Source: Aeromicrobium sp. (GTDB lineage Bacteria; Actinomycetota; Actinomycetes; Propionibacteriales; Nocardioidaceae). From it: a stretch of 64,000 bases of DNA. The notes under the pieces were generated by a model. The model had not been told where the DNA came from, did no database searches, and saw only the letters and a list, made by a program, of their open reading frames with translations. This document shows, one piece after another, positions 33,102 to 62,985 of this stretch. A program made the position numbers and the translations under genes. Numbering within the stretch: the stretch's first letter is position 1; every line of letters starts with the position of its first letter. The stretch spans positions 1 to 64,000 of the forward strand of contig NZ_JAGLCD010000017.1 in assembly GCF_023146395.1 (NCBI RefSeq), read 5' to 3'.

Positions 33102-33139
33102 CGACGCCGGTCATCCCCAGGCGGGGATGACCGGCGTCG
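33102..33139 (-). terminator. Hairpin terminator between rpmE and prfA
   Basis: Perfect 17-bp inverted repeat (33102-33118 with 33123-33139) and a four-base loop AGGC. It starts nine bases after the rpmE stop. No U tract follows, as in other terminators of this window. Confidence 0.8.
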
Positions 33140-54252: not shown

Positions 54253-54295
54253 GACCCGATCTCGACCCGCGCCGGGCGCGGGTCGAGATCGGGTC
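54253..54295 (-). terminator. Perfect 20-bp hairpin terminator of leuA
   Basis: Arms 54253-54272 and 54276-54295 are perfectly complementary over 20 bases, with loop CGG. The hairpin starts 12 bases after the leuA stop and has no U tract. Confidence 0.85.
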
Positions 54296-60843: not shown

Positions 60844-60932
60844 GGCGGTGAGTGGCGCGCCGAATCACCGTCTCCATTGGCGCGTCGCTCACCGCCGGCC
60901 TGCGGCATCGCCGCGTAGGTCACCGCCCGCCA
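60844..60932. repeat. Repeat element, first cluster (three half-sites)
   Basis: GGCGGTGAGTGGCGCGCCGA at 60844 and its inverted partner ending GCTCACCGCC (60876-60896), then a third half-site (about 60911-60929) in the same inverted direction. The family consensus is roughly GCGGTGACCTACGCGCCRAA. It lies between matB and the flavodoxin gene. Confidence 0.75.
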
Positions 60933-60959: not shown

Positions 60960-61409
60960 ATGTCCCGTCTGCTCGTGGTCCAGCACACGCCGACCGAGAA
61001 CCTCCGGACGATCGCGGACGCCGTGCTGGCCGGGGCGCGGCACCCGGACCTGGAGGGCGTGGAGGTCCAGGTCCTACCGGCGCTCGAGGCCGGGATCGAC
61101 GACGTGCTGGCCGCAGACGGCTACGTGCTCGGGACGCCGGCGAACTTCGGGTACATCTCCGGGGCGATGAAGCACTTCTTCGACACGGTCTACGACCACG
61201 TGCGCGAGGAGACCGCCAAGCGTCCGTTCTCGTACTGGATCCACGGCGGCTACGACACGACCGGCGCCGAGCGCGCGATGGAGCAGATCACGACCGGGCT
61301 CGGCTGGACCCTCGTGGCCGAGCCGCTGGTGTTCACGGGCGAGGTCACCGAGGACCGCCTCGAGGCCGCCACCGAGCTCGGCGGCACCGTCGCCGCGACG
61401 CTGTCCTGA
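60960..61409 (+). CDS. Flavodoxin-like NAD(P)H-dependent oxidoreductase
   Basis: A 149-residue flavodoxin-fold protein. Flavin phosphate loop QHTPTENLRTIADAVLAG, GTPANFGYISGAMKHFFD (the NQO/WrbA-type second loop) and SYWIHGGYDTTGAERAMEQI are visible. Such proteins reduce quinones or other small molecules. It lies between two clusters of inverted repeats, unlike its neighbours, which may mark a mobile gene. Confidence 0.8.
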   Translation: MSRLLVVQHTPTENLRTIADAVLAGARHPDLEGVEVQVLPALEAGIDDVLAADGYVLGTPANFGYISGAMKHFFDTVYDHVREETAKRPFSYWIHGGYDTTGAERAMEQITTGLGWTLVAEPLVFTGEVTEDRLEAATELGGTVAATLS

Positions 61410-61419
61410 CCCCGGGCGG

Positions 61420-61532
61420 GCGGTGACCTGCGCGCCGAACCGGCTCGCGGGCGGTGACCTACGCGCCACATTGCGGGTCAGTTCGGCGCACAGGTCACCG
61501 CTCCTCGCACGGTTTGGCGCGTACCTCACCGC
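61420..61532. repeat. Repeat element, second cluster (four half-sites)
   Basis: Half-sites at 61420-61440 and 61451-61471 (direct) and at 61481-61501 and 61512-61532 (inverted). Sites 1 and 3 differ at one of 21 positions when inverted. The last site forms the stop codon of the thioredoxin-reductase-like gene (61526). Confidence 0.8.
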
Positions 61533-62509
61533 CCGGCGGTGGGGGCGAGGAGCGCGGCGCGGTCGGCGACCATCAGGTCGGCGACGCACACACCGCCGGC
61601 CAACGCGCCGGCACCGATCGCGTTCGCGACCGAGGCCATGGCCATCGGCAGGTCACGGTGGTGGGCCGCGTCGCCGGCCGCGTAGACGCCCGGGACGCTC
61701 GTGCGAGCGAACGCGTCGACCAGGATCGACCCCATCGCCGAGACCTCGAGGCCCAGCTGCTCGGCGAACGGGGCCGCCTGGTGGACCGTCGGCGCCACGA
61801 AGACGCCGTCGAGCCGCACCGGGTCGGCAGCCGCGAGGTGCACCACGAGCCCCTCCCCCTGCGGCGTCACGCGCTCGACGACCTGGTCGTGCACCGTTGC
61901 GCCGTACGCGTCCAGCACGGCTCGCGTCTCGGCGTCCACCGCGGTGCCGTGGGAGAACACGTCGAACGTCCGCGAGATCCGCGGGAAGAACCCGGCCAGG
62001 TGCAGGAGGTGGCCGGGGACCGTGCCGATCACGCCGGCGGCGCCGCCACTCAGCTCGTGCCCGTGGCAGAACGGGCAGTGGGCGACCCCGCGACCCCAGA
62101 GCTCGGTGAGCCCCTCGATGGGCGGCAGCTCGTCGCGCACGCCCGTGGCCAGCACGACGTGGCGCGCCCGGCGCGTCGATCCGTCGTCGAGCACGGCCGT
62201 GAAGTCGTCTGCCTCCCCCGTCAGCGACACGACACGGGCCGCGACGCTGGTGACGGTGCCGTAGGCGGCGATGTCACGCCGGGCCGCGGCACGGAGCTCG
62301 GCCGGATCCTGGCCGTCGTGACCGATCAGATTGTGCAGGTGTCGCTCGGGCGCGTTGCGGTACACGCCCGAGTCGAGGTGCAGCACCGTGCGGTGCACCC
62401 GCGCCAGGCTCAGCGTGGCCTGCAGACCTGCCGGGCCACCACCGATCACCAAGGCGTCGTGCTGTGCGGTGTCGTGCAGCGGGCTGTCGTGCTGTGCGGT
62501 GTCGTTCAT
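61526..62509 (-). CDS. Thioredoxin-reductase-like FAD oxidoreductase
   Basis: A 327-residue two-domain flavoprotein: DALVIGGGPAGLQATLSL (FAD), VVLATGVRDELPPIEGL, redox pair in GRGVAHCPFCHGHEL (CPFC) and VPGVYAAGDAAHH. CPFC instead of CATC groups it with TrxR-like/bacillithiol or AhpF-like reductases, whose partners are unknown. The first 20 residues contain a 10-residue duplication HDTAQHD. Start ATG 62509 with GGGAG upstream. Divergent from the merR gene below, its likely controller. Confidence 0.85.
   Translation of the reverse strand: MNDTAQHDSPLHDTAQHDALVIGGGPAGLQATLSLARVHRTVLHLDSGVYRNAPERHLHNLIGHDGQDPAELRAAARRDIAAYGTVTSVAARVVSLTGEADDFTAVLDDGSTRRARHVVLATGVRDELPPIEGLTELWGRGVAHCPFCHGHELSGGAAGVIGTVPGHLLHLAGFFPRISRTFDVFSHGTAVDAETRAVLDAYGATVHDQVVERVTPQGEGLVVHLAAADPVRLDGVFVAPTVHQAAPFAEQLGLEVSAMGSILVDAFARTSVPGVYAAGDAAHHRDLPMAMASVANAIGAGALAGGVCVADLMVADRAALLAPTAGR
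62456..62505. repeat. 30-bp tandem duplication at a gene's 5' end
   Basis: The 20-base stretch starting GTCGTGCTGTGC occurs at 62456-62475 and again at 62486-62505, period 30, giving the repeated HDTAQHD in the N-terminus of the reductase. Confidence 0.85.
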
Positions 62510-62562
62510 GGGTTTCTCCCGAGTCTGACGTGCGCGACGAGTTGCCGTCGGACCCGAGTGTG

Positions 62563-62586
62563 TGACTTCATGTCAACATGAAGTCA
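62563..62586. promoter_or_regulatory. Perfect palindromic operator over the merR start
   Basis: Arms TGACTTCATGT (62563-62573) and ACATGAAGTCA (62576-62586) are perfectly inverted, with CA in the centre. The start codon of the MerR gene (62578) lies inside the right arm, so a bound regulator would block its own start. The reductase start is 53 bases away on the other strand. Confidence 0.7.
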
Positions 62587-62985
62587 AGTGCCGACGCGCC
62601 CTCGGCGCGGTGGAGCATCGGCGACACCGCCGCGAAGTTCGATCTGCCGACCCACGTGCTGCGGCACTGGGAGGACGTCGGCCTGCTCCGGCCGGCCCGC
62701 GACTCCGGCGGACGGCGACGCTACGACCAGAACGACGTCGTGCGCATCGCGGTCATCGTGCGCAACCGGGAGGCCGGCATGGGGCTCGACCAGATCCGGG
62801 TCCTGCTCGACGAGGACGCCCCCGACCGTCACCAGGTGCTGCTCGACCACGTCGCCGACCTGGATCGCCGCATGGCCGAGATGCAACGATCGCGCGAGAT
62901 GACGATGCACGCCTTCGACTGCACGAAGCACGACATCACCACGTGCCCGCAGTTCGCCGGACTCGTGGCCGATCTCGTCGGCTGA
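62578..62985 (+). CDS. MerR-family regulator with two C-terminal cysteines
   Basis: A 135-residue regulator: winged helix RWSIGDTAAKFDLPTHVLRHW, GGRRRYDQNDVVRIAVIVR, coiled coil LLDHVADLDRRMAEMQRSRE and then DCTKHDITTC, with two cysteines eight residues apart. It is neither the SoxR (CxxC) nor the mercury MerR arrangement, but a redox or metal sensor is plausible. No ribosome-binding site precedes ATG 62578, so the message may be leaderless. Confidence 0.85.
   Translation: MKSSADAPSARWSIGDTAAKFDLPTHVLRHWEDVGLLRPARDSGGRRRYDQNDVVRIAVIVRNREAGMGLDQIRVLLDEDAPDRHQVLLDHVADLDRRMAEMQRSREMTMHAFDCTKHDITTCPQFAGLVADLVG

Follow-up and report, generated by a model that had tools for sequence, protein, structure and literature searches.

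A MerR-family regulator and a divergent dithiol-oxidase-like enzyme of Aeromicrobium, with a predicted operator that includes the regulator's start codon

Two divergent genes near the end of the window (the whole 64-kb stretch of Aeromicrobium sp. DNA that was analysed) very likely constitute, taken as a whole, a self-contained module of a MerR-type switch and the enzyme that it would control (Table 1). The switch probably has a single target and is probably directed at thiol-active or thiophilic toxicants. The predicted operator, the layout of the promoter around it, the start codon inside it, the conserved cysteines of the regulator and the identity of the partner all emerge from the comparison of related loci. 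Both the mechanics of MerR promoters and a leaderless MerR mRNA that diverges from a leaderless target (CvkR) are known; what appears to be new here, judging from sequence, is the unusual compactness, a subfamily for which no report was found, and an informative swap of partners. Among openly licensed papers, judged by their titles and the beginnings of their abstracts, none was found that deals with this pair of regulator and enzyme.

Table 1. Features of the regulator-enzyme locus (positions in the window)
Feature	Position	Strand	Details	Basis
FAD/NAD(P)-type oxidoreductase	61526-62509	-	327 aa; CPFC at 145-148 (C145, C148)	ORF, Pfam, NCBIfam, PDB search
Shine-Dalgarno-like GGGAG	62516-62520	-	6 nt before the enzyme ATG	by eye
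Probable -35 of the regulator's own promoter, TTGCCG	62542-62547	+		column conservation; inference
Predicted -10 of the enzyme promoter, CACACT	62557-62562	-	read as 62562-62557; 19 bp from the -35	sequence and conservation
Predicted operator palindrome, TGACTTCATGT-CA-ACATGAAGTCA	62563-62586	.	24 bp; perfect 11-bp arms (11/11), 2-bp centre; regulator codons 1-3 inside	sequence and conservation
Predicted spacer of the enzyme promoter	62563-62581	-	19 bp, read as 62581-62563	sequence
Regulator start codon, ATG	62578-62580	+	inside the palindrome	ORF
MerR-family regulator	62578-62985	+	135 aa	ORF, Pfam, alignment, predicted fold
Predicted -35 of the enzyme promoter, TTGACT	62582-62587	-	read as 62587-62582; inside regulator codons 2-4	sequence and conservation

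The predicted operator and the two start regions

The sequence-only reading had described a 24-bp palindrome with perfect 11-bp arms that contains the ATG of the regulator, and this description is accurate. The palindrome has no second copy in the window with up to three mismatches, and the pattern TGACTTNATGTNNACATNAAGTCA has no other site with up to three mismatches in the 2.82-Mb draft genome (83% complete). Taken alone it is weak evidence, because similar palindromes arise by chance at about 0.6 per shuffled window: perfect arms of at least 11 bp with a spacer of at most 4 occur at 3 sites in the window, as compared to a mean of 0.6 and a maximum of 4 in 30 dinucleotide shuffles. The weight must therefore come from the comparison with other genomes.

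The regulator was identified in 47 of the 149 genomes of the family and in 62 of the 394 genomes of the class (E-value of 1e-20 or better); six weaker class matches (G271, G323, G497, G355, G409 and G436) do not enter the loci compared below. It was also found in named records of Nocardioides, Microbacterium, Knoellia, Janibacter, Promicromonospora, Rhodococcus, Streptomonospora and others; these named loci represent the best 80 of 569 relatives, a selection that favours close kin of the window and thereby inflates the share of oxidase partners. In the phylum-wide profile search, a score of 85 bits against the window protein was the lower limit, and MerR homologues below it were regarded as generic and left out. 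After the removal of loci present in more than one collection, 149 non-redundant loci were available. When an operator-like site is taken as a 24-mer with at most 6/24 mismatches to a partly degenerate consensus, an in-frame start codon lies at the equivalent place within the operator in 142 of the 149 loci (ATG in 140), its position relative to the operator being fixed. In the first set of loci the same holds for 81/83 (79 with ATG, 2 with GTG). At least nine of the eleven arm positions match in 110/149 loci, and all eleven in 67/149. In a distant clade the right arm with its ATG is kept and the left arm is less symmetric; none of the 12 loci of the methyltransferase groups B, C and D (described below) reaches nine arm matches. 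When one mismatch was allowed, the site pattern was present in 35 of the 47 regulator-bearing genomes of the family, at one place per genome, versus none of the 102 regulator-free ones. The other 12 regulator-bearing genomes are without the site at this stringency, and five of them (L015-L018, L021) carry CGACTTCAGGT instead. This conservation supports the proposal of the sequence-only reading that the palindrome is an operator lying over the regulator's own start codon.

Read on the minus strand, the palindrome represents, on the evidence of the aligned loci, the 19-bp spacer of the enzyme's predicted promoter, in the MerR layout TTGACT-19 bp-NAnnnT. TTGACT is kept in 130 of the 141 loci with an assigned start (the 8 loci without one do not enter the promoter counts), and the -10 box, with A at position 2 and T at position 6, in 136 of the 141; in most loci this box reads CAnnnT and not TAnnnT. 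Spacers of 19-20 bp are described as the rule for MerR promoters (PMC9909328), and a palindromic operator in a spacer of that length is what the predicted elements at 62557-62587 display. The sequence-only reading had missed the coincidence of palindrome and promoter spacer.

In the loci with a methyltransferase of type A as the partner, the divergent ATG is found at -29 from the regulator ATG in 13/15 cases, which leaves a 28-nt gap between the two start codons; since the divergent gene then starts 8 nt beyond the -10 box, both genes look leaderless there. In the window the two open reading frames are 68 bp apart, and the predicted leader of the enzyme mRNA is about 40 nt long and contains a Shine-Dalgarno-like sequence. 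By eye no such sequence was seen ahead of the regulator ATG, and the regulator mRNA is predicted to be leaderless, with the ATG at its very 5' end. The candidate region for the -10 box of the regulator's own promoter lies within 62566-62573. A comparable organization has been described for CvkR, the MerR-type regulator of a type V-K CAST in Anabaena, of which the leaderless mRNA also diverges from that of a leaderless target; CvkR differs in its operator motif, in the 82-nt spacer between the start codons and in its CRISPR-transposon target, and it is described as a repressor (PMC9938897).

The overlap has left a trace in the protein. The first three codons of the regulator read ATG AAG TCA. 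At the third position 72 of 76 genes have TCA, whereas the same GC-rich genes use this codon for only 22 of the 497 serines encoded from codon 5 on. In one locus (L027) the MerR domain begins some 55 residues later, and the N-terminus is still MKSS. In the predicted structure of the window protein the first ten residues have a mean pLDDT of 61, versus 89-98 in the later blocks. The conserved first residues reflect a constraint on the DNA and not on the protein; a protein function of the conserved N-terminus was rejected on the basis of the codon 3 usage and the low predicted confidence.

Six loci in Knoellia and Janibacter, in which regulator and enzyme are 1.2-3.4 kb apart, give an indication of which of the two genes the operator serves. 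A Y-family DNA polymerase gene (impB/mucB/samB) is located between the two in all six cases (the copy in L138 scores 122.7 bits against Pfam IMS). The operator takes the variant form CTTCAGGT-NN-ACCTGAAG, and in 6/6 loci the enzyme gene is preceded by TTGCCT-19-[CG]AnnnT with the variant palindrome inside and the ATG 6 nt after the -10 box. At the regulator's own start region a degenerate copy of the operator is found, and the usual in-frame start was counted in only 1/6. Since the operator stays with the enzyme, it seems to belong first to the enzyme's promoter, which suggests that its main role lies there. The start codon within the palindrome would then follow from the compact, divergent and leaderless layout.

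These data also bear on the proposal that the palindrome, instead of being an operator, acts as an RNA hairpin or terminator or arose simply by chance. The rate at which similar palindromes appear in shuffled sequence is in its favour, but the palindrome is conserved across genera, the site is absent from all 102 regulator-free genomes of the family, and both the symmetry and the promoter spacing are kept when the site has moved with the enzyme gene. We hold this proposal to be scarcely credible, and a chance palindrome or terminator was rejected in substance on the basis of conservation.

The regulator and its cysteine loop

The assignment to the MerR family, made earlier from the sequence alone, is confirmed by Pfam matches well above the cut-offs (PF13411, 67.8 versus 21.6 bits; PF09278, 41 versus 25.4 bits). 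The predicted structure (mean pLDDT 93.1) shows the MerR helix-turn-helix, a helix from 84 to 114 and another from 124 to 134, with the loop between them bounded by C115 and C123, and matches the structures of CadR, SoxR, NmlR, MtaN and CueR. The two cysteines in DCTKHDITTC (C115-x7-C123) are the only ones in the window protein. Both are invariant in the 83 homologues of the first set, and C-x7-C is present in 148 of the 149 non-redundant loci, L090 being the exception; D119 is kept in 146/148 and the proline after the second cysteine in 141/148. Operator start and cysteines are therefore both conserved in homologous pairs, as the sequence-only reading needed.

That reading had also considered the cysteine spacing to be atypical of SoxR, and had suggested a new thiol or metal sensor. 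The two conserved cysteines are indeed different from the situation in SoxR. SoxR has four cysteines, which hold a [2Fe-2S] cluster. The window regulator shares with SoxR the fold (match to 2zhg) and a redox-type theme, but it scores only 33.8 bits against the SoxR family, with a cut-off of 116.9 bits, and a SoxR-like iron-sulphur sensor was rejected since there are only two cysteines. The spacing itself is not new, because the Cu(I) sensor CueR has C-x7-C as well: the C-x3-D-x3-C-P of the regulator aligns with C112, D116 and C120 of CueR and the proline that follows. A thiol or metal sensor thus remains a fair guess, where "new" holds for the subfamily with its partners and not for the cysteine spacing. 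The best NCBIfam match is also CueR, at 53.1 bits, where the cut-off is 147.4. Opposite Ser77 of CueR the pairwise alignment places Q86, only two positions from a gap of 5 residues.

The loop residue before D119 is a histidine in 99 of the 103 loci with an adjacent oxidase partner. Four oxidase-type loci in a deep clade carry Glu or Asp at that position, and three loci with a type-E methyltransferase, located in a shallow clade, carry His. As judged from a quick tree, the residue tracks the phylogeny of the regulator and not the partner, which argues for one kind of signal that is answered by two chemistries.

The partner enzyme and its replacements

The divergent gene was earlier described as encoding a thioredoxin-reductase-like enzyme with CPFC. 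The orientation, the fold and the CxxC motif stand; the relation to thioredoxin reductase itself does not, as the protein scores 80.3 bits against TIGR01292 (TrxB, NCBIfam), far below the cut-off of 343.45 bits, for which reason a true thioredoxin reductase was rejected. The top match in the PDB is the uncharacterised oxidoreductase 3fbs (E-value 1.7e-47), followed by GliT (4ntc), DepH (4nte and 4jn9) and 4ntd, with E-values from 5e-45 to 2e-44 (4.6e-45 for GliT, 2.1e-44 for DepH). The entry 4ntd, listed as a thioredoxin reductase, is presumably HlmI. The unnamed Pyr_redox_2 protein 7br0 and the putative thioredoxin reductase 4fk1 come next at about 1e-32, and the remaining thioredoxin reductases follow from 1.5e-16. 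GliT and DepH, together with 4ntd, are thus the best-scoring named relatives in the PDB. With the dithiol oxidases GliT, HlmI, DepH and DnoP the enzyme has in common a TrxR-like FAD protein sequence with a CxxC, the motif essential for their activity; the motif reads CPFC or CPYC in all 51 partner enzymes of the first set that were examined. On this basis the protein is most like the dithiol-oxidase branch of the thioredoxin-reductase fold. A difference is that the available text of PMC11317636 and PMC3826145 mentions no divergent MerR gene for these oxidases.

Over the 149 loci the partner is an oxidoreductase in 109 cases (103 adjacent, 6 separated) and a SAM methyltransferase in 30, with 10 other or unreadable; these labels were assigned by similarity, that of L061 on a 51-residue piece, and the methyltransferase gene of L084 lies upstream on the same strand and is not divergent. 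The 25 methyltransferases of the first set fall into the groups A, B, C and D, which separate at 40% identity over 75% of the length, with a detectable similarity common to all 25. A group E was found at three loci, in Streptomonospora, Halopolyspora and Rhodococcus. The two members of group E that were scanned score above the Pfam cut-offs for both thiopurine S-methyltransferase and TehB, the scores for the former (41.2 and 31.4 versus 26 bits) covering the N-terminal third only. The representative of group D passes the cut-off of TehB. The single representatives scanned for groups A, B and C reached no cut-off of an S-methyltransferase family and have generic domains; that of group A retrieves generic methyltransferases from the PDB, MitM first. 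On a quick tree (129 columns, with many open forks and long branches) oxidase and methyltransferase have been interchanged at least three times.

The clustering of 52 oxidase-type neighbourhoods recovered the enzyme in 50 and the regulator in 42, the next clusters comprising at most 24 loci. Those next clusters carry two or three genus labels (one of 4 loci has four), unlabelled MAGs being counted as one label.

Proposed switch and the nature of its signal

In the mechanism that we propose, a dimer of the regulator would bind the 24-bp palindrome and keep the enzyme promoter shut, because the palindrome fills the over-long 19-bp spacer between TTGACT and CACACT. Upon encounter of the C-x7-C loop with its signal, the regulator would twist the DNA in the manner of MerR proteins, such that RNA polymerase could start, and the enzyme would then help to neutralise the toxicant sensed. 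The bound dimer would at the same time cover the start region and the start codon of the regulator gene and, as the latter lies at the 5' end of a predicted leaderless mRNA, would thereby limit synthesis of the regulator itself. We hold the DNA side of this proposal firmly and the signal loosely, since the loop would suit an organic thiol reagent no less than a soft metal and since the largest methyltransferase groups appear generic in the family search. The signal is the least certain part; we would guess first at a toxicant that is thiol-active or thiophilic, for instance an antibiotic of the dithiol or disulfide type, an electrophile, or a species of a soft metal or a chalcogen.

The enzymes under the regulator can be compared with known protections against dithiols. 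Dithiol oxidation and S-methylation are both reported to protect against dithiols of the holomycin type: HlmI closes the disulfide of holomycin, and S-methylated intermediates pile up without it (PMC3826145). In P. aeruginosa, the bacterial dithiol oxidase DnoP is reported to be induced by gliotoxin through zinc depletion (PMC11317636). A regulator that has either an oxidase-like enzyme or a methyltransferase as its partner would fit these two protections. For E. faecalis exposed to gliotoxin a MerR-family protein is listed in a table row, which shows no link to the present family (PMC10533825).

Three proposals on the signal have to be weighed. The regulator might be a soft-metal sensor of the CueR kind, in which the two cysteines hold one ion (Cu+, Ag+, Au+ or Hg2+) and the enzyme is induced since such ions damage or oxidise thiols. 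With CueR and the MerR metal sensors it shares the N-terminal helix-turn-helix, the long dimerisation helix, the C-x7-C loop followed by a proline and an operator in a 19-20 bp spacer; it differs in an operator that carries the regulator's start codon. The alignment of the loop, including the central aspartate, and the rank of CueR among the NCBIfam matches agree with this proposal, as would the Q86 that the pairwise alignment puts at the position of Ser77 of CueR, where CadR and MerR are described as having a cysteine (PMC9909328). Against it, the score remains far from the CueR cut-off and the partner enzymes belong to thiol or methyl chemistry, where CueR controls copper export. Furthermore, no gene cluster other than those of enzyme and regulator recurs in most of the 52 oxidase-type loci, and no copper gene was noticed in these neighbourhoods (the neighbours being unannotated). 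We regard a CueR-like metal sensor as a serious candidate, though one that we would not favour outright. Somewhat less probable, in our estimate, is a dedicated sensor of dithiol or disulfide toxins (gliotoxin, dithiolopyrrolones) or of the zinc starvation that these cause, which would control a detoxifying enzyme, a dithiol oxidase in some genera and an S-methyltransferase in others. The position of GliT and DepH among the closest PDB sequences, the repeated switch between oxidase-like and methyltransferase partners, the type-E proteins that pass the thiopurine S-methyltransferase cut-off and the precedent of DnoP are in line with it; the generic nature of the representatives of the three larger methyltransferase groups is not, and neither is the induction of DnoP via zinc depletion, in an article (PMC11317636) of which the available text does not contain the word MerR.

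It is also conceivable, if rather unlikely, that the regulator senses disulfide or electrophile stress in general, with C115 and C123 forming a disulfide or becoming alkylated and the enzyme restoring the thiol balance. A partner of the redox type would suit such a function, as would two invariant cysteines, one at each end of the loop between two predicted helices. Yet the conservation of D119 and of the proline is more reminiscent of the shaped binding loop of the metal sensors than of a bare disulfide, and methyltransferase partners are not predicted by general stress sensing.

A broader proposal, which we consider doubtful at present, is that this actinobacterial MerR subfamily as a whole is a dedicated sensor of dithiol and disulfide antibiotics, or of the metal withdrawal that they cause, with interchangeable means of detoxification: oxidation as by GliT, or capping by a methyltransferase. 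The operator and the -35 box of the target would lie within its first four codons, and the N-terminus MKSS/N/T would be a by-product of DNA recognition.

For the single-target switch preferred here, the swap of partners is informative: one regulator is paired with a thiol oxidoreductase in some loci and with one of several divergent methyltransferases in others, a natural experiment that points to the class of the toxicant. The N-terminus of the regulator provides a clean case of first residues that are dictated by an operator and by the -35 box of the neighbouring gene, and a trap for readers who would deduce a protein function from their conservation. If the proposed mechanism is true, environmental actinobacteria would possess a single-target reporter switch for thiol-active toxicants, and a regulator would be at hand for a branch of dithiol-oxidase-like enzymes of which the control is little known.

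Variant regulators, partners and operators

In one of the loci compared (L027), the MerR domain of the regulator is separated from the MKSS start, which the operator encodes, by some 55 residues rich in Ser, Pro and Ala. A relative of the regulator at another locus (L090) lacks the C-x7-C motif, and its divergent partner is a beta-lactamase-fold protein. At L081 the operator palindromes are doubled in tandem, a CTTCAGGT-type palindrome lying immediately upstream of the usual CATGT-type palindrome.

Duplication and taxonomic placement

The regulator is present twice in one genome (G231), in near-identical copies (L058 and L061); in L061 the match to the methyltransferase partner is limited to a 51-residue piece. 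L097 lies on a contig from a MAG classed as Alphaproteobacteria. Its regulator row and that of L026, which comes from the family to which the window belongs, are identical; the placement of L097 is probably a binning error.

Repeats and palindromes in the window

Allowing at most 2 mismatches, the sequence GCGGTGANNTNCGCGCC has 13 matches in the window (4.6 expected by shuffles), 7 of which fall in the two intergenic segments tabulated below. These 7 copies, which occur on both strands, flank a flavodoxin-like gene (60960-61409) on either side. Eight exact copies were found in the draft genome, whereas the reversed control gave 0. The repeat is perhaps a small interspersed element or a terminator family.

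Additional repeats and palindromes
Feature	Position	Strand	Source
Intergenic repeat GCGGTGANNTNCGCGCC	60845-60926	both (the two segments together)	pattern matching
Intergenic repeat GCGGTGANNTNCGCGCC	61420-61532	both (the two segments together)	pattern matching
Further perfect palindrome, arms at least 11	54262-54286		window scan
Further perfect palindrome, arms at least 11	33108-33133		window scan
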